From: Histomonas meleagridis
Lineage: Eukaryota; Parabasalia; Tritrichomonadida; Dientamoebidae
Direction: 5' to 3'
Assembly (NCBI GenBank): GCA_020186115.1
Contig: WSYJ01000175.1
Span: 116,194 to 180,193 of the forward strand
DNA: 64,000 nucleotides
Positions 4,777 through 59,330 of the stretch are shown piece by piece. The position numbers were made by a program, and so were the translations under genes. Position 1 is the stretch's first letter, and every line of letters starts with the position of its first letter. The notes beneath the pieces were generated by a model. That model searched no databases. It was given only the letters and a program-made list of their open reading frames with translations, and had not been told where the DNA came from.

Positions 4777-5679
4777 ATGTCAAATGATGATGCAAAAATT
4801 GCAAGCATAGATTCCAAGTCTCCAAATATTTATCTTGAATTAAGTGCTCAATTAGAACATATTATATTTGATTTAACTCAAGAAAATCTTGAATTGTCAT
4901 TTGAAAAAACAATGGAACTATTTGATCAAAATTATCCATATACATCTAATTTATTAATAAGTAATTTAATTTATGAAGCATTTTGTTCACATAATGATAA
5001 AATTTATATATATTTAAATTTCTTAGAAAAAATGAATTCATTTAACCAAGAAATTGTTGAAATTTTCAGCAAGCACATATCTGTAATTGACTCACAAGAA
5101 TCATATTATTTAATTTATCAAATGATAAAACGAAATTTAATTGACGCAAGCATTACTAAAAACATTAAAACTAAATATTTCGCACAATATAAAACAGAAG
5201 AAGAGAATAAAGAAAGAAATTTTGTATTTCCTTCAGAAGGAATTTTTTTAACTAATTATGAAGAACTTTCAAAGAATGGTTGGGAACTTCATAAGAAATT
5301 CATTGAAGAAGGACATAATCCCGATGAAATTGCGAAAATAATTCGAAATGATGAAATCGAAAAACTTCAAGAAATATCATCACAAAATAATTTTGATTTT
5401 AATCAAATAATTGAACCATCACTTTATGAAAGATGTGATTTTATTAATCAGTTTGGCATATCATTAATTGATTATGCAGCATTTTTTTCTTCTGTTAAAT
5501 GTTTTAAATATTTACTTATGAATAATGCGAATGTAAAGAATGCAGGTAAATATGCAGTTGCAGGCGGAAATATTGAAATTATTCATTTATGTGAACAAAA
5601 CCATTCATCATTTGAAGATGCATATGAAGCAGCAATCCAATTCCATAAAAATGATTTTTTTTTTATATATTTACGATAA
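4777..5679 (+). CDS. DUF3447-ankyrin protein, head segment, ends at a frameshift
   Basis: N-terminal 300 residues of a trichomonad DUF3447/ankyrin protein. The DUF3447 signature is clear at about residues 228-300 (SLIDYAAFFSSVKCFKYLL, then GKYAVAGGNIEIIHL). The upstream 220 residues match the heads of the other DUF3447 loci in this window, for example the block with EELSKNGWELHKKFIEEGHNP. The frame ends early at 5679 because a run of ten T (5655-5664) is one T longer than would keep the frame; the protein clearly resumes in another frame after the run. The extra T is either a real lesion or a homopolymer sequencing error. A GGGGCACCCC palindrome and AACG core lie 25-50 bases upstream. Molecular function unknown; ankyrin regions usually bind proteins. 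Confidence 0.8.
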   Translation: MSNDDAKIASIDSKSPNIYLELSAQLEHIIFDLTQENLELSFEKTMELFDQNYPYTSNLLISNLIYEAFCSHNDKIYIYLNFLEKMNSFNQEIVEIFSKHISVIDSQESYYLIYQMIKRNLIDASITKNIKTKYFAQYKTEEENKERNFVFPSEGIFLTNYEELSKNGWELHKKFIEEGHNPDEIAKIIRNDEIEKLQEISSQNNFDFNQIIEPSLYERCDFINQFGISLIDYAAFFSSVKCFKYLLMNNANVKNAGKYAVAGGNIEIIHLCEQNHSSFEDAYEAAIQFHKNDFFFIYLR

Positions 5680-5998
5680 TAAGATTGAAGAAATTAATGA
5701 TTTGGAAGAATTAGGAAAAATATGTGTTTCTCATAATAATTATACAATATTTACATATTTACTTAATAAAGGAATGAAAATTAATGAAAATATTATTGAT
5801 GAATCTGCAAGAATTGGAAATTTGTTTCTTACAAAAAATTTCATTGAAGAAATTCAAATTCCAAAAGACATATTGATTAGATCAATAGAATCAAGAAATG
5901 TTGAACTTGTTAAATATGTTCTTGAACAGAAAGGATTTGATATTAATTCTCAAGATATCTTGAATTTGTTTTGTTTCAAATTTATTTTAATAATTTGA
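5665..5998 (+). pseudogene. Continuation of the DUF3447-ankyrin head after the T-run frameshift
   Basis: After the ten-T run, the same protein continues in a shifted frame: a YDNKIEEINDLEELGK block followed by ankyrin-like phrases (NIIDESARIGNLFLTKNFIEE, NVELVKYVLEQKGFDINSQD). It ends in a hydrophobic stretch FCFKFILII and a TGA at 5998. The same hydrophobic tail plus stop ends the ankyrin frame of most units in the arrays, so this stop is the first of the regular spacers and not a random lesion. Counted with the array downstream, the locus runs from 4777 to a plausible true stop at 8506. Confidence 0.65.
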
Positions 5999-8506
5999 AA
6001 TTACAAAACAATATTTGGAAATTATTTTAATTATTTGAAACAGCACTCATTTATGCATCTAAATTAGGTCACATAGAAATAGTTAAAATACTTCTTGAAC
6101 AAAAAGGAATTAATATTAAAGCTAAAGATATTTATTAGTTTGATATAATATTTTATTTAATTATTTTATATTTGAAATTATTATTTGAAAATTATCTAAA
6201 TTATTTGAAACAGCACTTATGAACGCATCTTCAAAAGGTCATACTGAAATCGTGAAATTACTTCTAGAGCATGGAAAATTTGATATAAATGATATAGATA
6301 TTTATTTGTTTTTTATATTATTTATTGTAATTATTTAATATTTCAAAGTAATATTTGGAAATTATTTAACATATTTGAAACAGTTCTTATTTTAGCATCT
6401 AGAAATGATCATAAAGAAGTGGTTAAATTACTTCTTGAACAAAAAGGAATTGATATTAATGCTAAAGATATTTATTTGTTATATTTGACATTTATTTTAA
6501 TAATCTGATATTTGATAATAATATTTGGAGATTAATAATATTATTTTTATCAGCACTTATGATAGCATCTAAAAGTGGTCATTCAGAAATAGTTAAATTA
6601 CTACTTGAAAAAAAAGAAATTGATATTAATGCCAAAGGTATATAAATATTTGATTTGATATTTGTTACAATAGTTTAACATTTCATAATAATATTTGGTG
6701 ATCAATTATAATATTTTTTACATCACTTATATTCGCATCTTGTAATGGTAATACAAATATAGTTAAACTACTTCTTGATCAAGAAGGAATTGATATTAAT
6801 GCTAAAGATATTTAAATATTTGATCTGATATTAATTTTAACAATTTGATGTTTCACAAAAATATTTAGAAATCATTCAAATTACTTGAGACATCACTTAT
6901 CAAAGCAACTTATAATGGTAACTTAGATACTGTTCGATTACTTCTTGAGCAAGATAATATTGATGTCAATGCAAAAGATATTAATTTGTTTTATTTTCTA
7001 TTTATTTTGAGAATTTAATGTTTTAGAATAATATTTGGATTTTATGAAAATTATTTTATACAGCAATTATGCATGCATCTGAAAGCGGTGAAATAGAAAT
7101 ATTTAAGTTGCTTCTTGCGAATAAGAACGTTGATATCAATTGTAAAGACATTTGTTTGTCTTATTTTATATTTGTTATGATGATATGAATTTTCAAAATA
7201 ATATTTGGAAATTATTTAAATTATTTAATACACCACTCATGTATGCATCTAGAGAAGGTTATATAGAAATTGTAAAAATACTTCTTATACAAGAAAAAAT
7301 TGATGTTAATACAAAAAATTTTTATTTGTTTTGTTTAGATTTCATAATAATAATTTGAAATTCCAAAATAATATTTGGAAATTATATAAAATATTTTATA
7401 CAGCACTTATGTATGCATCTTATAATGGGTATTTAGAAATAGCTAAATTACTTCTTACGCAAAAAGGAATTGATTTTAATGCGAAAGATATTTGTTTTTT
7501 TGATTAAATATTTGATTTAATGATTTGAATTTTCAAAATAAAATTTGGAAATTATGAAAAATATTTAACACAGCACTTATGCATGCATCAGAAAATGATA
7601 AAATAGAAATAGTTAAATTACTTCTTAAACAAAATAAAATTGATATTAATGCAAAAGATTTTTATTTGTTTTGTTTAGAATTTATAAAAAAAATTTAAAA
7701 TTTCAAAATATTGTTTGGAAATTATTTAAATTATTTAAAACAGCACTTATGTTTGCATCTAATGAAGGTTCTATAGAGATAGTTAAATTACTTCTTGAAC
7801 AAGAAGGAATAGATATTAATGCTAAAGATATTTAATTGTATTAAAGACTTATTATAATAATTTAATATTACAAAATATTGTTTGGAAATTATTTAAATTA
7901 TTTAAAACAGCACTTATGTTTGCAGCTAATGAAGGTTCTATAGAGATAGTTAAATTACTTCTTGAACAAGAAGGAATAGATATTAATGCTAAAGATATTT
8001 AATTGTATTATTTAAGACTTATTATAATAATTTAATATTACAAAATATTGTTTGGAAATTATTTAAATTATTTAAAACAGCACTTATGTTGGCATCTATA
8101 GAAGGTTCTATAGAGATAGTTAAATTACTTCTTGAACAAAAAGGTATCAATATTAATGCTAAAGATATTTAATTGTATTATTTAAGACTTATTATATTAA
8201 TTTAATATTTCAAAATAATATTTGGAAATAATTTAAAATATTTTGGACAGCACTTATGTTGGCATCTAAAAATGGTTATACAGAAATAGTTAAATTACTT
8301 CTTGAACAAGAAGGAATAGATATTAATGCTAAAGATATTTAATTGTTTTGTTTAAAATATATTTAAAAAATTAAATATTTTCTCGTAAAATTTAGAAATT
8401 GATTAAAATATTTGATACAGCACTTATTTATGCATCTAAAAAAGGTTACACTGAAATAGTTAAATTAATCAAAGAGAAAAAGAATAGTGAAAATTCTAAT
8501 TGTTGA
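5998..8506 (+). repeat. Ankyrin array 1: about 15 units, 170-bp period, spacer-interrupted
   Basis: Each unit has about 90 nt of ankyrin sequence (consensus TALMYAS..G..EIVKLLLEQ then GIDINAKD) and about 80 nt of AT-rich spacer ending ATATTTGGAAATTATTT. Anchors (the ACA of T-A-L) fall at 6040, 6210, 6380, 6550, 6720, 6890, 7060, 7230, 7400, 7570, 7740, 7907, 8077, 8247 and 8417: every step is 170 bp except one of 167. None of the ankyrin segments has a stop, while about half the spacers have one in the frame of the next unit. The last unit changes from KLLLEQ to KLIKEKKNSENSNC and ends in TGA at 8504-8506, which looks like the true gene end. No consistent GT or AG marks the spacer edges. Confidence 0.8.
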
Positions 8507-16937: not shown

Positions 16938-19200
16938 TCATCCTATAAATACAGCTACTGTAGTGTTGTCAACAACGGAAGTAATCTTACCAATAATCAT
17001 ACTATTTATTTTTGTTGTTAATGCAGTATCATCATCAAAAATACTACCACCATAAAGTATTATATCACCAACGCTGTAAGCAGCACTATCGTTTACTTTA
17101 AAATAATAATCACCATGAATAGCAAAATCTATAGTATATTTATTAATACATATATCTTGTTTAATAGTATCTCCTATTTGAAATATTTCAATAGAATGAT
17201 GTTTATTAACACAAATACCAATAAATTCTTTATAAGAACCACTACTTTTAACACTAGGTATACAGTTAGTAGAATCTGTAGTAGAAATATATTTATAAGT
17301 CCCATTTTCATTAATCAATTTATAAACATTACCTGTTATAAATACTGGTTTTCCAATGATGAAATTAACAATATTATCATTTTCCGAAATAGGTGAATTA
17401 TTAGTTATTGTTTTATTAATCTGTCCTCCTCCAGTACTACTAATGATAGCTACTCTATACTGACTATTAGAATAGTGCCAAAATTCTAATTCATTTTGAT
17501 AAGAAGCTATCCTCCGAGTATATGTTCCTGGTGCTTCTGTTGATTGATCATGATATACAAAATCTACAAATCTACCGATTCTTAATACAGCATTTGAATA
17601 AGGAACTATATCATTAGGTTCATGAATATGGGAACTATATGTAAAAGTAGAAGGTTTGTGAGTAATATCATTATAACTATGAGTATGGCCATTTACTGAG
17701 AAAAAACTTACATTAATATTAGTTAATAGAATTACAATTTATATTATTATTATTTCCATTAAAACTGATATTACCATCATTATTATGGAGTTTACCGAAA
17801 TACATAGTATTACCAGAAGTTCTTATTCTTGAACTATAATTACTATCATCATTACTATCATTAAAATCAATATATTGTTCAATTTCCATAACACCATCAC
17901 TTTCAATAGTAGCTATACATATCAAAGTATTTAAATAATTTCCTGGTGAAGAACCGTTATTAATATAATAAATGTTAATTTTACCATCAACAGTAATATC
18001 AACATTAAATTCTGAATGAGTATGATTATTTAAACTAAAATTATCAACATGTATATCATTAATATAATTTACTTCTCAATTACCATATATTTTCAAATCG
18101 TTATTAATAGTGTTGTGAGTATGATTTATTAGACAAAAGTTATCAACATCTATATTATTAATATAATTACGATTTATATTACCGTTAACAGTAAAAATAT
18201 TATTAAATTCTGTATGAGTATGATTTAATAAAGTATATTCATCATCATGATTATGTGTTGTTAATGAAATATTATTAGTATCAATTCCATTAATATAATT
18301 ACAACTAATATTACCGTTTCTAAATATACTTACATAATTACCATCACATGTTTTGAATCTTAAACAAGTATCGATGTTATCATCAGAACCTACGTAATGT
18401 TCTATTACACTTCAATCATCTCCATATGGTAATACACCTATTTCCATTCTGATAGAATTATATGGGAACGCATTAAATTCATTATAGATAAACAATCCTT
18501 TATAAATATTCGTATCATCTGAATATTTACTACAATCAATATTCTACATGAAATATCATTACCTACTAATAAATCTTGTTTAATCTTAGTCCATTCACCA
18601 TATTCATTATATGATATTCCTGTTAAAGCCTTATTTATATCAGTTAAATTAAAATTAGTTAAATACTGATCATAAGTATGAGTTGTTAGAAGAAAGTTAT
18701 TAACAGGTATATCATTACCATACTTTGTTTCTATATTACCATTAACCTCTAAATTTCGATTGATATTAATATATATTTCATAGATATCTTCTCCTTCTTC
18801 GTTAATTTTTATTTAATCTTTATTATAATCAATTCCTGTTAGCTTGTTATTTATATTAAATATATCATTATTAATTACTGACAACTCATCTAAATCAATA
18901 CCATTAATATTATTACATTCTTTATCACCATTAACTTCAAGATTTTGATCAATATTAGTATATATTTCATATATATCTTTTTCCTCATATTCATTAATAA
19001 TGATTCCAATTAAATCTTAATGATAAGTAATTCCTGTATAATTATTTAAATCAGAGCTTATTAAGTAATTATCATGTTTATGCTCAATAAATCTTTTATA
19101 TATCTGACAATCAACTAATAACATACCTAATTCATTAGTTCTCCGGTATTTAGAAACATCTTCATAATAATATTTCAAATTTTTGAAAATTACATTCATT
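16938..19200 (-). pseudogene. Degenerate tail-fibre-like (virion-type) gene
   Basis: Read on the minus strand, this 2.2-kb stretch translates into segments of one long repetitive protein, interrupted by several stops and frame changes. It starts near MNVIFKNLKYYYEDVSKYRR (19199) and ends in an intact 126-residue segment (17318-16938) with SVGDIILYGGSIF and IGKITSVVDNTTVAV. The middle has repeated NNHTHS/NGHTHS phrases and an ITHKPST block, with H-x-H motifs like those of phage and virus tail-fibre or receptor-binding proteins. Such genes occur in Maverick/polinton-type elements, which are abundant in trichomonads. I see no integrase, polymerase or capsid gene beside it, so I call it a decayed remnant. 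Origin is inference. Confidence 0.55.
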
Positions 19201-19989: not shown

Positions 19990-21052
19990 GAAATTATTAG
20001 AAAAATCGATCCGAGAATGTCCGATTGGATCCTATATTATAATATATTAAATTATTAAAAATTAATTTTAAATAAAACAAATAAACATCTTTAGCATTAA
20101 TATCAATTCCTTTTTGCTCCAAAATATATTTGACAAGTTCCGTGTTTCCTGATCCTGCTGAAAATACCAATATATCATGCGGATTTGAATGCTTTTTAAT
20201 AAAATATTCAACTAAAAAAATATTTCCAATTTTTGCTGCTACATTAATGATATTTTCATTAATTTTCATTCCTTCTATTTCTAGATATGTAAAAATTTCA
20301 TAATTAAAATATGAAACACATTTTTCTCCTAATTCGTCTAATTAATTAATTTCTTCAATTTTACTTTCATAAAGATAATGAAAAATATCATTTCGATGGA
20401 ATTCAATTGCTGTTTCATATGCTTTAAAAAATGAAGAATGATTTTGTGCACATAAATGAATGATTTCTTCATTTCCACCTGCAACTGCATATTTACCTGC
20501 ATTTTTTACATTTGCACCATTCATAAGTAAAATTTAAAACATTTAACTGAAGAAAAAAATGCTGCATAATCAATTAATGTAACATTCTTTTGATTAATAA
20601 ATGAACATCTTTCATAAAGTGATGGTTCAATTATTTGATTAAAATTAAAATTATCTCGTGAAGATATTTCTTGAAGTTTTTCTATTTCATCGTTTCGAAT
20701 TATTTTTGCAATTTCATTCGGATTATGTTATTCTTTAATGAATTTCTTATGAAGTTCCCAATCATTCTTTGATAGTTCTTCATAATTTACAAAATCATGT
20801 TTCTTTAAATAGACTGCTAATTATTCTATAGACATATAATGTACAAAATATGGACTCCGTCTGTTTTTTACAATGTTTGGTTCAAGAAAATTATGTTCAA
20901 TCATCGATTCAAGAAGATAAGATGATTCATTTGTATACTTATTGATAAGAAATCGACCAAATATATCAAATATATTGGATTTGATTTAATTACTCTCTTC
21001 AAATGCTCTTATTTCTTTTATAACATTCAAAAATGAATCTGCGTTATTATTT
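19990..21052 (-). pseudogene. DUF3447-ankyrin pseudogene
   Basis: A decayed relative of the DUF3447 heads at 4777 and 46914. In order on the minus strand, the recognisable blocks are ELHKKFIKE, IIRNDEIEKLQEISS, NVTLIDYAAFFSSVKCFK, GKYAVAGGNEEIIHL and EFHRNDIFHYLYESKIEE, then an ankyrin-like tail ending IDINAKD and the usual hydrophobic stop segment. At least four in-frame stop codons (near 20340, 20730, 20825 and 20987) and one single-base deletion (near 20533) break it. The N-terminal ~100 residues are missing and replaced by unrelated sequence at 21053. No ankyrin array follows. Confidence 0.8.
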
Positions 21053-40595: not shown

Positions 40596-40687
40596 AAAGT
40601 TTATGATGAAATGAATTTTCGACTTTTTATGTAAATGAAAGTCGAGAAAAATATTGAACAGTTTGAGAGAATTCGTTTTGTTCGAAT

Positions 40688-42530
40688 AATGATTTGAAAG
40701 TGAAAAGGAATTACTTAAATTAATGATTTGAAAGTAAAAAGGATTTACTTAAATTAATGATTAGAAAGTGAAAAGGAATTACTTAAATTAATGATTTGAA
40801 AGTGAAAAGGAATTACTTAAATTAATGATTTGAAAGTAAAAAGGATTTACTTAAATTAATGATTAGAAAGTGAAAAGGAATTACTTAAATTAATGATTTG
40901 AAAGTGAAAAGGAATTACTTAAATTAATGATTAGAAAGGAAAAAGGATTTACTTAAATTAATGATTAGAAAGTGAAAAGGAATTACTTAAATTAATGATT
41001 TGAAAGTGAAAAGGAATTACTTAAATTAATGATTTGAAAGTGAAAAGGATTTACTTAAATTAATGATTAGAAAGGAAAAAGGATTTACTTAAATTAATGA
41101 TTTGAAAGTGAAAAGGAATTACTTAAATTAATGATTAGAAAGTGAAAAGGAATTACTCAAATTAATGATTTGAAAGTGAAAAGGAATTACTTAAATTAAT
41201 GATTTGAAAGTGAAAAGGAATTACTTAAATTAATGATTTGAAAGTGAAAAGGAATTACTTAAATTAATGATTTGAAAGTGAAAAGGATTTACTTAAATTA
41301 ATGATTTGAAAGTGAAAAGGAATTACTTAAATTAATGATTTGAAAGTGAAAAGGAATTACTTAAATTAATGATTTGAAAGTGAAAAGGAATTACTCAAAT
41401 TAATGATTAGAAAGTGAAAAGGAATTACTCAAATTAATGATTTGAAAGTGAAAAGGAATTACTTAAATTAATGATTTGAAAGTGAAAAGGAATTACTCAA
41501 ATTAATGATTAGAAAGTGAAAAGGAATTACTCAAATTAATGATTAGAAAGTGAAAAGGATTTACTTAAATTAATGATTAGAAAGGAAAAAGGATTTACTT
41601 AAATTAATGATTAGAAAGTGAAAAGGAATTACTTAAATTAATGATTTGAAAGTGAAAAGGAATTACTTAAATTAATGATTTGAAAGTGAAAAGGAATTAC
41701 TTAAATTAATGATTTGAAAGTGAAAAGGAATTACTCAAATTAATGATTAGAAAGTGAAAAGGAATTACTCAAATTAATGATTAGAAAGTGAAAAGGATTT
41801 ACTTAAATTAATGATTAGAAAGGAAAAAGGAATTACTCAAATTAATGATTAGAAAGTGAAAAGGAATTACTTAAATTAATGATTAGAAAGGAAAAAGGAT
41901 TTACTTAAATTAATGATTTGAAAGTGAAAAGGAATTACTTAAATTAATGATTTGAAAGTGAAAAGGAATTACTCAAATTAATGATTAGAAAGTGAAAAGG
42001 AATTACTCAAATTAATGATTAGAAAGTGAAAAGGATTTACTTAAATTAATGATTAGAAAGGAAAAAGGATTTACTTAAATTAATGATTTGAAAGTGAAAA
42101 GGAATTACTTAAATTAATGATTAGAAAGTGAAAAGGAATTACTCAAATTAATGATTAGAAAGTGAAAAGGAATTACTCAAATTAATGATTAGAAAGTGAA
42201 AAGGATTTACTTAAATTAATGATTAGAAAGGAAAAAGGAATTACTCAAATTAATGATTAGAAAGTGAAAAGGAATTACTTAAATTAATGATTTGAAAGTG
42301 AAAAGGAATTACTCAAATTAATGATTAGAAAGTGAAAAGGAATTACTTAAATTAATGATTTGAAAGTGAAAAGGAATTACTTAAATTAATGATTTGAAAG
42401 TGAAAAGGATTTACTTAAATTAATGATTTGAAAGTGAAAAGGAATTACTTAAATTAATGATTAGAAAGTGAAAAAGAATTTCTCAAATTAATGATTTGAA
42501 AGTGAAAAGCAATTTCTCAATTTAACACAA
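40688..42530. repeat. 34-bp minisatellite, about 54 copies
   Basis: Tandem unit AATGATTTGAAAGTGAAAAG plus GAATTACTTAAATT. Variant sites are TTG/TAG, GTG/GTA/GGA, GGAATTA/GGATTTA and ACTT/ACTC, and the variants occur in ordered blocks. For example, the block TTG-C, TAG-C, TAG-T, GGA recurs every seven units (about 238 bp) around units 24, 31 and 38. Lengths are almost indel-free; the last two units are degenerate. It lies directly after V-ATPase a and before the end of ankyrin array 2. No spacers, so not a CRISPR. Confidence 0.95.
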
Positions 42531-42583: not shown

Positions 42584-45500
42584 TTATTTTTTTTTAATGA
42601 GTTTAACGATTTCTGTACCACCATATTCAGATGCATACATAAGTGCTGTATAAAATATTTTTAATCATTTCCAAATATTATTTTGAAATATAAAATTATT
42701 AAAATAATTATTAAATAAAACAAATCAGTATCTTTAGCATTAATATCAATTCCTTCTTGTTCAAGAAGTAATTTAACTATTTCTGTATGATCATTCCAAG
42801 ATGCTAAAATAAGTGCTGTTTTAAATAATTTAAATAATTTCCAAATATTATTTTGAAATATTAAATTATTAAAATAAATTCTAAATAAAATAAATAAATA
42901 TTTTTAGCATTTATATCAATTCCTTCTTGTTCAAGAAGTAATTTAACGATTTCTGTACGACCACTCCAAGATGCCAAAATAAGTGCTGTTTTAAATAATT
43001 TAAATAATTTCCAAATATTATTTTGAAATATTAAATTATTAAAATAAATTCTAAATAAAACAAATAAATATCTTCAGCATTAATATCAATTCCTTCTTGT
43101 TCAAGAAGTAATTTAACTATTTCTGTACGACCATATTCAGATGCATACATAAGTGCTGTATAAAATATTTTTAATCATTTCCAAATATTATTTTGAAATA
43201 TCAAATTATTAAAATAATTATTAAATAAAACAAATAAATATCTTGAGCATTAATATCAATTCCTTCTTGTTCAAGAAGTAATTTAACTATATCTATGTGA
43301 CCATTTTTAAATGCACGCATAAGTGCTGTTTTAAATAATTTAAATAATTTCCAAATATTATTTTGAAATATTAAATTATTAAAATAAATTCTAAACAAAA
43401 CAAATAAATATTTTTAGCATTAATATCAATTCCTTCTTGTTCAAGAAGTAATTTAACGATTTCTATATGAGCTCTTCTTGAGGCAACCATAAGAGTTGTT
43501 TCAAATATTTTAGATAATTTCCAAATACTATTTTGAAATATCAAATTATATAAATAAGTTTTAAACAAAACAAATAAATATCTTTAGCATTAATATCAAT
43601 TCCTTCTTCTTCAAGCAGTAATTTAACAATTTCTGTATGATCATTCCAAGATGCATACATAAGTGCTGTTTCAGATAATTTTAATAATTTCCAAATACTA
43701 TTTTGAAATAGAAAATTATTAAAATAGATATCAAACAAAACAAATAAATATTTTTAGCATTAATATCAATTCCTTTTTGTACAAGAAGTAATTTAACAAT
43801 TTCTATCTCACCATTTTTAGATGTCAACATAAGCGCTGTTTCAAATAATTTAAATAATTTCCAAATATTATTTTGAAACATAAAATTATTAAAATAAATA
43901 TCAAATAAAATAAATAAATATCTTTAGCATTAATATCAATTCCTTCTTGTTCAAGAAGTAATTTAACGATTTCTGTTTTACCTTTTTCAGATGCTTTCAT
44001 AAGTGCTGTTCTAAATAATTTAAATAATTTCCAAATATTATTTTGAAATTTTAAATTATTAAAATAAATTTTATCTTTAGCATTAATATCAATTCCTTCT
44101 TGTTCAAGAAGTAATTTAACGATTTCTGTACGACCATATTCAGATGCATACATAAGTGCTGTTTCAGATAATTTTAATAATTTCCAAATATTATTTTGAA
44201 ATATAAAATTATTAAAATAAATATCAAATAAAATAAATAAATATCTTTAGCATTAATATCAATTCCTTCTTGTTCAAGAAGTAATTTAACGATTTCTGTT
44301 TTACCTTTTTCAGATGCTTTCATAAGTGCTGTTCTAAATAATTTAAATAATTTCCAAATATTATTTTGAAATTTTAAATTATTAAAATAAATTTTATCTT
44401 TAGCATTAATATCAATTCCTTCTTGTTCAAGAAGTAATTTAACGATTTCTGTACGACCATATTCAGATGCATACATAAGTGCTGTTTCAGATAATTTTAA
44501 TAATTTCCAAATATTATTTTGAAATATAAAATTATTAAAATAGATATCAAATAAAACAAATAAATATCTTTAGCATTAATATCAATTCCTTCTTGTTCAA
44601 GAAGTAATTTAACTATTTCTGTATGACCTTTTGAAGATGCTTTCATAAGTGCTGTTTTAAATAATTTAAATATTTCCCAAATAATATTTTGAAATATAAA
44701 ATTATTAAAATAAATATTAAATAAAACAAATAAATATCTTTAGCATTGATATCATTATCAATTCCTTTTTGTTTAAGAAGTAGTTTAACTATATCTATGT
44801 GACCATATTCAGATGCACGCATGAGTGCTGTTTCAAATAATTTAAATAATTTCCAAACATTATTTTGAAATTTTGATTCATTTACATTAACACCGAATAA
44901 AACAAATAAAAATCTTTAGCATTAATATCAATTCCTTTTTGTTCAAGAAGTAAATTGACTAAATCTAAATATCCATTTGCTGATGCTAAAATAAATGCTG
45001 TTTGAAATATGAATAATTTTCAAATATTATTTTCAAATATTAAATTTATTTATTAAAAATTAAATATAAGAAATATACATTTGTAGAGTTAATATCAATT
45101 CCTTTTATAAGAAGTAATTTAAATATTTTGGGATAACCTTTTTGAGATGCAATCATAAGTGCTGTGCTAAGTAATCAAAATAATTTCCAAATATTATTTT
45201 GAATTATAATATTATTAAAATAAATTTTATCTTTAGCATTAATATCAATTCCTTCTTGTTCAAGAAGTAATTTAACTATTTCTGTATGACCTTTTTGAGA
45301 TGCATACATAAGTGCTGTATAAAATATTTTTAATCATTTCCAAATATTATTTAAAAATCCAAAATTATTAAAATAAATATTAAATAAAACAAATAAATAT
45401 CTTTAGCATTGATATCAATTCCTTCTTGTTCAAGAAGTAATTTAACTACTTCTGTTTTACCTTTCAAAGATAAATCCATAAGTATTGTTTGAAATGATTT

Positions 45501-45660
45501 AAATAATTTCCAAATGTTATTTTTAAATATCAAATTATTAAAATAAATTTTAATAAAAGCAAATAAATATCTTTGTCGTTAATATTAATTCCTTTATTTT
45601 TGAGAAGTAACCCAATTATTTCCATGTTACAATTTTCGATTGCATAAAGAATTGCTTCTT
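42584..45660 (-). repeat. Ankyrin array 2: about 18-19 units, 170-bp period, spacer-interrupted
   Basis: Continues the DUF3447 gene at 45616-46914. Anchors (minus-strand ACA of T-A-L) lie at 42647, 42817, 42987, 43157, 43327, 43497, 43667, 43837, 44007, 44160, 44330, 44483, 44653, 44829, 44999, 45163, 45316, 45486 and about 45656. Steps are 170 bp mostly, 153 three times, and 176 and 164 once each; the last two come from two-codon changes inside ankyrin segments. Ankyrin segments are all open. The terminal unit ends EIVKLIKKK and TAA at 42584-42586, like the KLIK end of array 1. A two-unit block is duplicated in tandem without visible change (43921 and 44244, offset 323). Confidence 0.85.
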
Positions 45661-46914
45661 TAAATAATTTATGTAATTTCCGAAATTTGTTAGAAAACAC
45701 CAATAAATAAAAACAAATTTTAAATAAAACAAATGTATATAATTTACTTGAGGATTTTCTTGTTCAAGAATATATTTAATGAGTTCAATATTTTTGGATT
45801 CCAACAATTTAAGTAAAATATTATCTGGAACTTGATTATTTTGAAGAAAATATTTAACAAGATATAAATTACCAATTCTTATTGCTTCACATATAATTGG
45901 TGAATTAATTTTCATATGTTCTCCTTCTAAAAATGAAAGAATTTCATAATTATAATATGCTATACATTTATTTCCAAGTCTTTGTAAATTTTTGATTTCT
46001 TCTAATTTATTTTCATAAATATAACGAAAAATATCATTTCGATGAAACATAATTGCTGTTACAAGAGATCCTTTAAATGATGAATGATTTTGTTCACATA
46101 AATGAATAATTTCAATATTTCCACCTGCAACTGCATAATTACCTGCATTTATTACTTTTGCACCATTCATAAGTAAATATTTAAAACATTTAACTGATCT
46201 AAAAAATGCTGCATAATCAATTAATGTAACATTTTTTTGATTTATAAAATCACATCTTTCATAAAGTGATGGTTCTATTGTTTGATTAAAGGTAAAATTT
46301 GTTTGTGATGATATTTCTTGAAGTTTTTCTATTTCATCATTTCGAATTAATTTTGGAAGTTTATTTGGATTATGTCCTTCTTTAATTAATTGCTTATGAA
46401 GTTCAAAATCATTTTTAGATAGTTCTTCATGATGCTTTAAAAAGGTATTCTTAATATTTCCTTTTTTTGTTTTATAATGTGCAAAATATTTTGATTTAAT
46501 GTTTTTCGTAATATTTGAATCAATTAAATTTCTTTCTATCATTATTTCAATCAGATAATATGATTCATGTGATTGGATTTTATTTATACAATTAATAAAA
46601 ACTTCAATGACTTTTAAATTGTTTTTATTTAGCTCTTCTTCTTGAGTTTGAATTAATTCTAAATAATTTAAATATAAATCATTAACATTACTTTGTGAAA
46701 AAAATGCATAAAAAATTAAATTACTTATAATAAGGTTAAATGTGTATGGATAATTTAAATCAAATAATTTCATTGTTTGCTTAATAGATGAATCAAGATT
46801 TTCTTTTGTTAAATTAAATATAATGTTTTCTAGTTTAATTAGAATTTGATACTTGGGGTCATTTGTTTTTATTTCAGGAGAATTTGGAGCATTTGTTCCT
46901 TGTTTATCATTCAT
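45616..46914 (-). CDS. DUF3447-ankyrin protein, head segment
   Basis: Intact head of a DUF3447/ankyrin protein, about 432 residues. The DUF3447 core is at about 245-330 (NVTLIDYAAFFRSVKCFKYLL, GNYAVAGGNIEIIHL, MFHRNDIFRYIYENKLEE), preceded by the conserved EELSKNDFELHKQLIKEGHNP block. The frame ends within the first spacer: NPQVN is followed by a hydrophobic run and then ankyrin sequence in a different frame (EAILYAIENCNMEII). The true product probably continues through array 2 to 42584 if the spacers are removed. I start at ATG 46914 (MNDKQGTNAPN); upstream in-frame codons up to 47007 lack a suitable ATG and overlap the shared promoter. Divergent from the phosphatase gene. Confidence 0.82.
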   Translation of the reverse strand: MNDKQGTNAPNSPEIKTNDPKYQILIKLENIIFNLTKENLDSSIKQTMKLFDLNYPYTFNLIISNLIFYAFFSQSNVNDLYLNYLELIQTQEEELNKNNLKVIEVFINCINKIQSHESYYLIEIMIERNLIDSNITKNIKSKYFAHYKTKKGNIKNTFLKHHEELSKNDFELHKQLIKEGHNPNKLPKLIRNDEIEKLQEISSQTNFTFNQTIEPSLYERCDFINQKNVTLIDYAAFFRSVKCFKYLLMNGAKVINAGNYAVAGGNIEIIHLCEQNHSSFKGSLVTAIMFHRNDIFRYIYENKLEEIKNLQRLGNKCIAYYNYEILSFLEGEHMKINSPIICEAIRIGNLYLVKYFLQNNQVPDNILLKLLESKNIELIKYILEQENPQVNYIHLFYLKFVFIYWCFLTNFGNYINYLKKQFFMQSKIVTWK

Positions 46915-52771: not shown

Positions 52772-53089
52772 AACAAATAATAAAATTTGTTACAATAACC
52801 TCCAAAAACGATAAAATTTCACACAATTTCAAAAATCATTTTGGAAGATTACTTGAAAGCGAAAAAACTTGTATTAGACATAGAACCAAATAAAAGTTTT
52901 AATGATTGGTCATCACCCAAAGAAGGACATTGAAAAATGACGTCATTTTTACTTGGTGTAACTAGTAACAAATGAATTTAATGTAATCCCTAGGGATTTT
53001 AAAATATCATTCAACTTCAGAACATTGGCAAAGTAACCAACTAGTTAGATGCATTCATAATCAAAATTTTATTTCTTAATATCAAATTG
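52772..53089. other. Intergenic, no gene seen
   Basis: About 320 bases upstream of the UBA-SEP gene up to the end of ankyrin array 3. An AACG core (AAAACGATAAA) lies 35-45 bases from the UBA-SEP start. Confidence 0.5.
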
Positions 53090-54080
53090 TTAAAACTAAT
53101 TTTTTCCCCAACGACTTCAATTCCTTCTTGTTCAAGAAGTATTTTAACAATTTTTGTTCTACAATAATCAGATGCAATCATAAGTGCTGTTTTAAATAAT
53201 TTCTTTAATTTCCAAATATTATTTTGAAATATTAATTTGCTAAAATAAATATTAAATAAAACATATAAATATTTTTAGCATTAATGTCAATTCCTTTTTG
53301 CCTAAGAAGAAATTTAATTATTTTTGTATTACAAGAATTTGATGCAAGCATAAGTGCTGTATTAAATTATTTAAATAATTTCCAAATATTATTTTGAAAT
53401 ATCAAATTATTAAAATAAATTCTAAATAAAACAAATAAATATTTTTAGCATTAATGTCAATTTCTCCATGTTCAAGAAGTAGTTTAACAATTTCTGTATT
53501 ACAAGATCTTGATGCTAATATGAATGATGTATTAAATAATTTGTATAATTTCCAAATATTACTTCAAAATATCAAAACAACAAAATAAATATGAAATAAA
53601 ACAAAAAAATATCTTTAGCATTAATATCAACTTCAATATGTTCAAGAAGTAATTTAACTATTTCTGTATGACCATATTCAGATGCTCTTATAAGTGCTGT
53701 ATAAAATAATTTAAATAATTTCCAAATATTATTTTGAAATATCAATTAATTAAAATAAATATTATATAAAACAAATGAATATTTTTAGCATTTACATCAA
53801 TTCCCTTTTGGTCAAGAAGTAATCTAACAATCACAGGATGATTATGTTTGGTTGCATATATGAGTGCTATTTTAAAATGTTTAAATAATTTTTTTATATA
53901 AAAATTAAATATTAAATAAATATAATAAATTATAAATGAAAAAAACTAATGTTTTTGGCATTTACATTAATATCTTTTTGCTGAAGAAGTAATTCCGTAA
54001 TTTCAATGTTTCCATTTAAGGAAGCATACATAAGTGCTGTTCTAAATTCATTAAATAAATCATAAATTCTGAATTAATAT
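53090..54080 (-). repeat. Ankyrin array 3: six units, exact 170-bp period
   Basis: Anchors at 53188, 53358, 53528, 53698, 53868 and 54038, every step exactly 170 bp. All six ankyrin segments are open although they differ widely (for example TALMYASLNGNIEITELLLQ and IALIYATKHNHPVIVRLLLD). Spacers are of the same type as in arrays 1 and 2. The last unit ends in a short in-frame segment and TAG near 53044. The head upstream (54082-55392) carries two nonsense codons. Confidence 0.82.
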
Positions 54081-54081
54081 T

Positions 54082-55392
54082 TTAAATAATGTGATTAAAC
54101 ATAGTTGAAAGAAAATATATGTCACCAACATTGATATTAAATCCTTTTTGAGTCAAAAAATATTTTAAAATTTCAAAATTATTTCTTTTAATTGCAGAAA
54201 TTTGTATATAATTTGATATATGATTTCCTTCAACAAAATGTATAATAATATATAAGTTACTGTGTTTAATTGATTCATTAATAAGTTCATCATTTATTTT
54301 CATCTTGCTATCTTCTAAATATGATAAAATTTCGAAGTTATTATGTAAAACACATTTATTTCCTAATTTTTCCAAATTTTTGATACTTACAATTTTATTT
54401 TCATAGAGATATTTAAAAATATCATTTCGATGAAACTCAATTGCTGCTTCATATGCATCTTCAAATGATGAATGATTTTGTTCACACAAATGAATGATTT
54501 CTTCATTTCCACCTGCAATTGCATATTTACCTGTGTTTTCTACATTAGCACCACTCATAAGTAAATATTTAAAACATTTAACTGAAGAAAAAAATGATGC
54601 ATAATCAATTAGTGAAACATTTTCTTCATTAATAAATGAATATCTTTCATAAAGTGATGGTTCAATTGTTTGATTAAAATCAAAATTTGCTTGTGATGGT
54701 ATATCATGAAGTTTTTCTATTTCATCATTTCAAATTATCTTTGCAATTTCATTTGGATTATGTCCTTCTTTAACATATTGCTTATGAAGTTTCCAACCAT
54801 TCTTTGAAAGTTCTTCATAAAATTCATTAAATTTTTAATCATAATTCCTTATTGGCCTATTTATTAATTCCAAAATTTCATATTTTAACATATTATGTGC
54901 AAAATATAATGTTTTTGAGTTTTTAGTGACTCTTGGATCGATTAATTGTTCTTCAATTAATTTTTCCATAAGTGAATTTGATTCATTTGTATTTAATTTC
55001 ATTAGAAACTGTGATAAATATTCAAAAATTCCAATATTCTTCGGATTTTTGTGGCTTTCTTTTACTTTTATTCCAAATATTTTTAAAAAATTTATATATA
55101 TTATTAACTCTTTGTTTTGAATTTTATATGATGAATATAGAAAACTACAAATAATGTTAAAAAATGTTTCTGGAAAACAATTATCATAATAGCATAGAGA
55201 AGAATCAACTGATGTTTCAATATTTTCATTCGTTAGATTCAATAAAATTTGTTCAAGTGATAAAAGTTTTGATAAGAATTCTTTTTCATTTGGAGTTTGT
55301 GGTTTGAGGTAAATGTTTTTGCTTTCCCATTTTCGTATTTCGCCCTTTTTATTTTGTCTTTTTTCCCATGAATATCTTCCAAACCATGTCAT
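54082..55392 (-). pseudogene. DUF3447-ankyrin head with two in-frame stops
   Basis: One continuous frame from ATG 55392 (MTWFGRYSWEKRQ) to 54082 carrying two nonsense codons: TAA at 54837-54835 and TGA at 54732-54730 (where the other heads have RNDEIEKL). The DUF3447 core (NVSLIDYASFFSSVKCFKYL, GKYAIAGGNEEIIHL, EFHRNDIFKYLYENK) is intact. It ends GFNINVGDIYFLSTMFNHII, the usual spacer-entry tail, and is followed by array 3. No frameshift is seen, so decay is recent or only point mutations have occurred. The N-terminal 30 residues differ from the other copies. Confidence 0.78.
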
Positions 55393-57967: not shown

Positions 57968-59330
57968 ATGGAACTTTCGAAATCATTAAAATCAAATGTC
58001 TATAATCTCAATGAAGGAAATTTTGAAACATCAGTTCAAGCAACAATTAATTTATTTGTAGATAGGGTGCTATATACATTTAACTATTTTGTTTCTAGAC
58101 TTATATATTCAGCTTTTGTTTCTCAAACAAATAATGAAAATATATATATTAAATATTTATTAACTTTAAAAGAAAAAGAAGATGAAATGGAAAAAAATAA
58201 AAGTAAAACTGAAACAAATCTTATTCAAATATTTTGTAAATATTTACTAGAAACAGAAAAGCAAGAATCATATTTCCTTCTTGAAAAGATGATCGAAGAA
58301 GAAATAATTGAATCATCTTCAGTAAAAAACTTGAGCACATTATATTTTTCTCAATATAAAACAAAAGAAGAAATAAATGATTTGAGTACAAATTTCCAAG
58401 ACCACAATTCCTTGAAGAATTCGTTTCGGCACTATATGAATTATCAAAAGACGATTGGAAGCTTTATATGCAATATGCAAAAGAAGGAGTTAATCCATTA
58501 GAAATTGCGAAATTACTTCGAAATGATGATTTAGAAGAGCTTCAAGAAATTTCATCACATAATGAATTTGACTTTAATCAAATAATTAAGCCATCACTTC
58601 ATGAAAGATGTTCATTTATTAACAAAAAAAGTTTCATTAATTGATTATTGTGCATTTTTTGGTTGGATTAAATGTTTTAAATATTTGTTTTTAAATAATT
58701 CGATCAAAAATACATCTAAATACGCAATTAAAGGTGGAAACTTTGAAATTATTCATTTATATGAACAAAATAATTCATCATTTACAGAAGCATATGAAAC
58801 AGCTATAGAATTTCATCAAAATGAGATTTTTCGTTATCTTTATGAAAATAAAATTGGTAAAGTTTCCAATGATAGACAAAATTCATTTTCAATGTTTTCT
58901 TATCCAAAATCGAATTCCAATATCAAAAAATCAAGATAATTGTAATTTAAGTGAAGAAAATTTAGTATATCTTGGGAAAAAATGTATAGAGTTCAATAAT
59001 CTTGAAATCTTCTCGTTTTTAGAAAAAGAAGGAATGAAAATAAATAATGAAATTATAGAAGAAATAGCATCAAAAGTGATATAGAAAGTCAGCAAATTCC
59101 AAAAACAATTTTACCATATTCAGTTGAATCAGGAAATATAGAAATCGTAAATTACTTTTAGATAAAGGAATTGATGTTAATGCAAAAATTATTTGAATAA
59201 TTTGGAATATGTTTTAATAATTTGAAACAACACTTCATATAGCAGTTAAAAATAATAGTATATTTCAAGAAACAATAAATATATTGATATTTATAAAGAA
59301 TTTACTATTTAAAACTTTGAAAATAAACAT
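57968..59330 (+). pseudogene. DUF3447-ankyrin pseudogene, frameshifted
   Basis: The head begins MELSKSLKSNVYNLNEGNFE (57968) and stays open to 58501. It shifts frame near 58400 and again near 58615, where SLHERCSFINKK passes into another frame with VSLIDYCAFFGWIKCFKYLF and SKYAIKGGNFEIIHL. It then breaks at about 58935. The tail (59100-59330) contains ankyrin debris (KGIDVNAKII, TTLHIAVKNN) with the usual spacer, then fades. At least four lesions. No array follows. Confidence 0.75.

Follow-up and report, generated by a model that had tools for sequence, protein, structure and literature searches.

Histomonas meleagridis is a poultry parasite whose genome contains long arrays of ankyrin units interrupted by AT-rich spacers. 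We analysed a 64,000-nt stretch of this genome (the window), which holds three such arrays and two relics. Array 1 (4777-8506, forward strand) consists of a DUF3447 head followed by ankyrin units of 90 nt, each separated from the next by a spacer that is mostly 80 nt long. The spacers are regular chains in which a 17-nt element alternates with a single codon, and the codons spell the finger of the ankyrin repeat. Probably, each spacer is a chain of ultrashort, intron-like 17-nt elements that are removed, most likely from RNA, leaving single-codon exons. Similar inserts interrupt the fingers of other ankyrin genes of the same genome, and the elements differ from the ordinary introns of the organism.

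Anatomy of the spacers

Tandem Repeats Finder reported a period of 170 nt with 15 copies at 5919-8467. On the forward strand, 6040-8416 holds 14 ankyrin units (90 nt each) with a spacer of 80 nt (77 nt in one case) after every unit, and 8417-8506 holds a terminal unit, closed by a stop codon of its own at 8506. The unit starts run from 6040 and 6210 to 7740 in ten consecutive steps of exactly 170 nt, followed by 7907 (a step of 167 nt) and by 8077, 8247, and 8417 (170 nt each). None of the 15 ankyrin parts, 14 full units and the terminal one, contains an internal stop. The first spacer (5957-6039, forward strand), which follows the head, is 83 nt long; it comprises an extra codon and then four pairs of a 17-nt element and a codon, and encodes the finger I-Q-E-G-E. 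A sequence-only reading of this stretch had described about 15 open 90-nt ankyrin units with AT-rich spacers and a distinct terminal unit with its own stop, and both descriptions proved accurate. The same reading took each spacer for one non-coding block of 80 nt. The length was right, and the block is divided as 17+3+17+3+17+3+17+3, so that 12 of the 80 nt are codons. In the spacer after the unit at 6380, for example, the elements at 6470-6486, 6490-6506, 6510-6526, and 6530-6546 (forward strand) are followed by GAC (D, 6487-6489), GAT (D, 6507-6509), GGA (G, 6527-6529), and TTA (L, 6547-6549), respectively. The triplets thus spell the finger x-x-Gly-x between ...NAKD and TALMYAS. The penultimate finger codon is Gly in 33 of the 39 parsed window spacers, with fingers such as INGE, DDGL, SNGY, NWGY, DYGE, and NDGY.

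Spacers were collected with a unit profile, which yielded 495 units in the window and 56 loci and 427 adjacent pairs less than 400 nt apart. Of these, the 404 pairs whose gap was 30-260 nt and whose two units both scored above 12 bits were retained (351 of them distinct), a filter that may drop some decayed units. The 351 spacers come from 46 sources, some of which overlap (L009 with the window, and L037-L056 around earlier loci); identical rows were counted once. The 238 distinct spacers of 80 nt were cut at fixed positions, and the triplets at offset 17 of each 20-mer were read as codons. Triplets 1 to 4 contained 0, 0, 0, and 1 stops, compared with 6.5, 18.5, 1.8, and 23.4 expected from column composition and with lowest counts of 0, 9, 0, and 14 in 2000 column shuffles. 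The avoidance at triplets 2 and 4 is decisive; triplets 1 and 3 are not decisive alone. A triplet shifted one base earlier is a stop in 164, 106, 48, and 174 of the 238 spacers at the four places, respectively. Triplet 3 is Gly in 179 of the 238 (GGA in 164, GGG in 8, GGT in 6, and rarer forms); as in ankyrin fingers, polar or aromatic residues (N, K, D, R, E, Y, W, and others) predominate at the remaining triplets. The whole set of 351 spacers was parsed into 1406 elements and 1584 codons with 5 stops, and 317 spacers parsed cleanly (1 stop in 1328 codons); the parser penalised stops and can parse any length, and the real test is hence the fixed cut. The claim that the spacers stop or shift every frame stands with a qualification: 97 of the 351 are stop-free in the incoming frame, and these break it by the shift only (80 mod 3 = 2).

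The triplets also improve the match to Pfam profiles. Five window units joined with their real triplets scored 150.8, 150.0, and 137.3 bits against Ank, Ank_2, and Ank_4, respectively, compared with 131.4, 131.6, and 103.7 bits without a linker and 133.4-137.3, 127-133, and 107.3-117.4 bits with triplets taken at four control offsets (0, 1, 5, and 14). Seven control offsets were made, two of which held stops; the stop-free offset 13 was left out of the scoring. Both the profile score and the finger x-x-G-x before T-[AP]-L are those of an ankyrin repeat (Pfam PF00023/PF12796).

The spacers obey a length law. Modulo 20, their length is 0 in 281, 3 in 42, 17 in 7, and another value in 21 of the 351; hence, 330 are 20k, 20k+3, or 20k-3 nt long, seven are 20k+1 or 20k+2, and none is 20k-1 or 20k-2. 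With 330 of the 351 lengths and 317 clean parses in agreement, the 17-nt elements share the near-invariant length (15-17 nt) of the ultrashort introns of mikrocytids and heterotrichs. For a plain intron, such a law would be unnecessary. At some loci the spacers, composed of visible 20-mers, range from 40 to 240 nt, and the 19 expanded spacers with at least five element-codon pairs hold 148 codons without a stop. Element 1 has been lost as exactly 17 nt, with its codon kept, in 27 spacers of 63 nt from 16 sources, among them L009, which overlaps array 2 of the window; these losses may trace to few events. Array-like matches also lie inside long open frames (418 and 584 aa) at G000:C40:2953035-2954201, C55:811000-811554, and elsewhere; since a length of 63 nt is a multiple of 3, such matches may be read through and have a different fate.

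The pooled consensus of 952 elements is R-T-T-T-N9-R-T-T-T. The 1406 parsed elements start with AT (919), AA (262), or GT (110), and 1134 end in TTT. When each unit was compared with its nearest neighbour (185 pairs, mean identity 84%), the mismatch was 0.12 in the first four bases of the elements, 0.161 in the middle nine, and 0.10 in the last four; the element ends are better conserved than the middle. Some of the fastest-changing places are finger codons 1, 2, and 4 (0.22-0.51); the Gly codon changes more slowly (0.12-0.21). RNAalifold found no shared RNA structure in 38 window spacers.

Contrast with the ordinary introns of Histomonas

The genome encodes ordinary introns of another kind. 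All six interrupted kinase genes that were fetched carry introns of 57-93 nt with the form GTATGTTT...CTAACACATAG (GTATGT...CTAACACATAG). Among the 133 kinase-domain matches listed, seven had stops and three were partial (one of them a further match within a frame that was on the list already); the others, known from the table alone, showed no internal stop. One kinase domain lies in an open frame of 22,955 codons (G000:C78:376002-376739). A U2 RNA with the usual branch box and a U6 RNA with the ACAGAG box (43.7 bits, compared with an Rfam cut-off of 44) were found. The array elements carry none of the trichomonad U2-type signals as a rule: only 110 of the 1406 start with GT and 4 end in AG, in agreement with the sequence-only reading, which had seen no fixed GT start, no AG end, and no fit to trichomonad introns.

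Alternatively, the usual spliceosome might remove a single ordinary intron of about 68-80 nt from each spacer, and the triplets would not be exons. The length of such an intron is within the range of the six kinase cases, and the U2 and U6 RNAs are present. We consider this alternative very improbable. The three window arrays lack GTATGT, and the CTAAC branch motif occurs once in their approximately 8.8 kb. Composition, stop avoidance, and Pfam score mark the triplets as codons, and the length law of 20k ± 3 would have no cause.

In motif searches, the trichomonad 3' motif ACTAACACACAG gave 3 matches compared with 2 in the control, and the motif ACTAACACATAG gave 50 compared with 12; about 30 of these 50 lie in tandem blocks near contig ends. 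The ACTAACACATAG blocks near the ends of G000:C9, C53, C55, and C84 are spaced in steps of mostly about 820-830 bp and are possibly a subtelomeric repeat.

Four models were considered and dropped. GT-AG signals within the ACAG of the Thr-Ala codons were rejected as the site varies with the coding (ACA TCA, ACA CCA, ACA ACT), and excision between direct repeats at the two ends of a spacer would not give the right frame; the remaining two were a -1 frameshift at each spacer and a single 80-nt intron per spacer.

Distribution in the window, in the genome, and in other ankyrin genes

In the window, array 2 lies on the reverse strand, with an intact DUF3447 head of 390 aa (45743-46914) and 18 parsed spacers plus a terminal unit with a stop (42584-45742). 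Three of its 18 parsed spacers are 63 nt long, with element 1 gone and its codon retained. A 34-bp satellite of 54 copies (40687-42525) begins approximately 60 bases past the 3' end of this array. Array 3 (about 53061-54904, reverse strand) has six parsed 80-nt spacers and a degenerate last unit. A single ankyrin unit with a partial spacer (20035-20176, reverse strand) and a degenerate unit with a spacer (59105-59247, forward strand) are relics. Two of the three array heads in the window are damaged, so individual array copies may be relics too. The window also contains 2.5 copies of a 99-bp repeat (17981-18232) that was not recognised.

The layout extends over the genome. Each of the 28 loci retrieved through DUF3447 or head similarity (L001-L028, including L009, which is array 2 itself) fits the unit-plus-spacer model, with 2 to 11 matches. 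The head of array 2 has at least 122 matches in the genome, and the full-length ones among those listed, besides itself, are 56-68% identical to it. A 17-base string present in 77 of the 351 spacers has 2283 occurrences in the genome and none in the reversed control, which suggests approximately 10,400 spacers and some 40,000 elements; this order-of-magnitude estimate is extrapolated from a non-random sample. The virulent H. meleagridis assembly comprises 43.4 Mb in 187 contigs with a GC content of 28.66%, and its 573 annotated introns were predicted by AUGUSTUS trained on the transcriptome, according to the available part of its description (PMC8529796). Of three deposited Histomonas proteins, P0013 ends in the first spacer (...DINAQNI), and P0015 and P0017 end otherwise. 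A proteomics paper, as far as its available text goes, lists an ankyrin-domain protein (labelled KANK1) in Histomonas. Literature searches, which covered open-licence papers in PubMed Central, turned up no description of the 17-nt elements.

Sixteen further ankyrin genes (4, then 12) were picked for a high Ank_2 score and mostly short open frames. In eleven of them (L059, L060, L061, L071, L073, L075, L076, L077, L079, L080, and L082), the fingers are interrupted by short T-rich inserts, with one to three inserts of the 17-nt type per finger, and deletion of 17 nt restores fingers such as D-N-E-G-L-T-P. Examples are D-N-[17]-E-G-[17]-L-T-P-M in L059, D-G-F-G-[17]-K-Y-P-L-H in L076, and A-K-[17]-F-[17]-G-[17]-Q-T-P-L-H in L079; L060 has broken and unbroken fingers within one gene. 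L074 and L081, like L058, are uninterrupted over the stretch read. All 23 breaks listed are in fingers (at least two more, in L060 and L080, have no second anchor), and their best parses give 50 elements; in 18 breaks every element is 17 nt long. Of 35 hand-picked elements among the 50, 24 start with GT and none ends in AG, under a parse scoring that favoured a purine start and a TTT end; the second-ranked parse of one L079 finger would yield an AG end. These isolated inserts support the 17-nt length, short of proof.

The isolated elements also bear on the suggestion, made in the sequence-only reading, that ribosomes skip the inserts. Skipping of each 17-nt element in translation, as in the bypassing of phage T4 gene 60 or of yeast mitochondria, would suit the fixed element length and the position of all array elements between codons. 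Translational bypassing requires matching take-off and landing codons. In the arrays, the codon before an element varies, and the element ends in TTT (1134 of 1406). In the best parses, one isolated element of L071 and two of L082 fall within a codon, and about 60 skips would be needed per gene. Skipping is therefore quite unlikely, and that suggestion was not sustained.

Excision from DNA in the manner of ciliates, with the assembly showing the unprocessed version, is the least probable of the explanations that we weighed, and we give it very little credence. The germline DNA of ciliates does contain large numbers of short AT-rich elements. Among the matches listed for a joined 342-aa query, the assembly showed no array copy free of elements, and Histomonas is not known to possess a second type of nucleus. 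The long uninterrupted matches listed for this query are at most approximately 50% identical, and the higher identities belong to short matches within interrupted arrays. The element-free junction pattern D-I-x-F-E-T-A gave six matches; the four inspected (L032 and L035 being outside the inspection) are an unrelated sequence, an array spacer end, a spacer in a DUF3447 gene, and a degenerate ankyrin stretch.

In the protein database, the 120 matches listed of 7399 for the joined query are at most 59% identical; none is named Histomonas, and most are nameless. Seven of twelve metagenomic head proteins end at I or V immediately past the final D or G of the head, at the expected start of element 1, a hint that relatives may share the 17+3 layout. 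A single head query found no relatives in viral or prokaryote contigs, and an alignment query found two loci in prokaryote contigs (L083 and L084) and none in viral contigs. L083 ends inside a head nearly identical to P0007, and L084 is unrelated in layout. The L083 contig (CALUSQ010000040.1), from a bacterial metagenome-assembled genome, carries a DUF3447 head of this array family and an apparent DDE transposase; it is likely a protist contamination.

Proposed removal of the elements and comparison with known systems

The ankyrin units are kept open. Only 4 of the 351 units contain a stop, despite 2622 changes in the 185 nearest-neighbour pairs (approximately 14 per pair) and although 4.8-7.3% of random changes in the unit codons yield one. 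The units follow the normal ankyrin pattern, with L3, A6, L18, L19, and N27 conserved and positions 4, 5, 8, 9, 11, and 12 variable. The mismatch is 0.18, 0.115, and 0.178 at codon positions 1, 2, and 3 of the ankyrin parts, against 0.12, 0.161, and 0.10 across the start, middle, and end of the elements, and the ratio of non-synonymous to synonymous change (dN/dS) between nearest units is 0.80. This ratio may combine frame residues that are fixed with binding residues that change fast; a family under weak constraint would give the same value.

The weak overall constraint indicated by this ratio is one of several points that weigh against coding arrays with removable elements. The head of array 1 (4777-5998, forward strand) is frame-broken into two overlapping open reading frames (4777-5679 and 5540-5998), with a break that apparently sits in a run of ten T at 5655-5664 and is possibly a sequencing error, and the head of array 3 has in-frame stops at about 54700-54850. 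Thirty-four of the 351 spacers have no clean parse. The lack of an element-free copy counts here as well, the top-scoring uninterrupted match being 45% identical. The DUF3447 gene L058 has an uninterrupted 500-codon frame and no unit-plus-spacer layout, and L072 and L078 shift frame without any T-rich insert, probably by small indels. Five of the 23 best parses of isolated breaks include an 18-nt element, three of them in T runs of 7-8 and two as poor fits (the first breaks of L076 and L080), and these parses are partly ambiguous, with a scoring biased toward 17 nt, a purine at the start, and TTT at the end. The elements were seen in ankyrin fingers only, in a set of genes made up of ankyrin genes and, mostly by table, kinases.

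Two of these points would suit arrays that are relics, a satellite of ankyrin unit and AT-rich 20-mers that unequal exchange spreads, with expression limited to the DUF3447 head. Besides the dN/dS of 0.80 and the two damaged heads, homogenised arrays such as L021 and the end of P0013 at the first spacer fit such a satellite. We nevertheless regard it as unlikely. Stops and frameshifts have not built up freely, as they would in a pseudogene or relic satellite (4 of 351 units and 5 of 1584 finger codons with a stop); stops are avoided in single codons 20 nt apart; the ankyrin profile is canonical in its conserved and variable positions; and similar elements occur in ankyrin genes that are not satellites. 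A relic that still spreads, as the sequence-only reading had allowed, describes the family poorly but may describe individual copies, given the two damaged heads.

The reading that we prefer is therefore removal of the elements by an unusual mechanism, which that reading had also raised and which agrees with spacers unlike trichomonad introns and ankyrin parts kept free of stops. Each spacer would be a chain of 17-nt intervening elements with RTTT-like ends. The elements would be removed, most likely from RNA, and the codons between them would remain as single-codon exons. The joined codons would rebuild the ankyrin finger D-x-x-G-x-T and give repeats of 34 residues, and the product would be a single continuous protein from the DUF3447 head through the terminal stop. 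The 20-nt cassette of element and codon could be duplicated or lost without damage to the frame, which would let the finger, a usual binding loop, vary in length and residues.

A bolder proposal, which we put forward tentatively, is that Histomonas clears its RNA of tens of thousands of fixed 17-nt elements outside the ordinary spliceosome by recognising a purine-TTT end and a fixed length. The 20-nt cassettes might then add, drop, and swap single amino acids in a binding loop with the frame intact, a modular diversification of binding proteins by one codon per exon.

If removed as proposed, the elements would rank with the shortest known intervening sequences, would leave single-codon exons, and would lack the GT-AG and branch signals used elsewhere in the same cell. 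The element-codon cassette would be a simple route by which residues could be added to or removed from a binding loop in frame, and many Histomonas ankyrin genes may be annotated as truncated heads, as is P0013. Standard read mappers treat gaps as small as 17 nt as deletions; hence, such introns may be overlooked in other genomes. The elements would also be far more numerous than the introns annotated in the genome, 573 by the available text of its report (PMC8529796).

Among known systems, the translational bypassing sequences termed byps resemble the elements as non-coding stretches inside an open frame. They are mitochondrial, are 27-55 nt long, and have matching take-off and landing codons. 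Trichomonas and Histomonas belong to the same phylum. In the available text on T. vaginalis, introns are of types A and B, type B being 23-25 nt long with a variable GTWYWD start, and all 63 introns are GT/AG with the branch site fused to the 3' end (PMC12316389); in contrast, the Histomonas array elements have neither GT/AG ends nor a fused branch site. The tiny introns of Stentor, as described in the available portion of their report, are 15-16 nt long, AU-rich, and fixed in length, and most start with GU, end in AG, and have a branch A at position 10 or 11 (PMC9505925). The Histomonas elements are likewise short, AU-rich, and fixed in length, but 4 of the 1406 end in AG. The mikrocytid Mikrocytos mackini, in the accessible part of its description, has 224 spliceosomal introns in 179 genes, nearly all of 16 nt and the rest of 17 nt, with highly conserved sequence and with splicing assessed by transcriptome data (PMC10245619). 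An exceptionally uniform, tiny length is common to both systems. They differ in that Histomonas has an estimated 40,000 elements, situated in ankyrin fingers as far as seen, with one-codon exons and no AG end, and that its genome also contains longer canonical introns.

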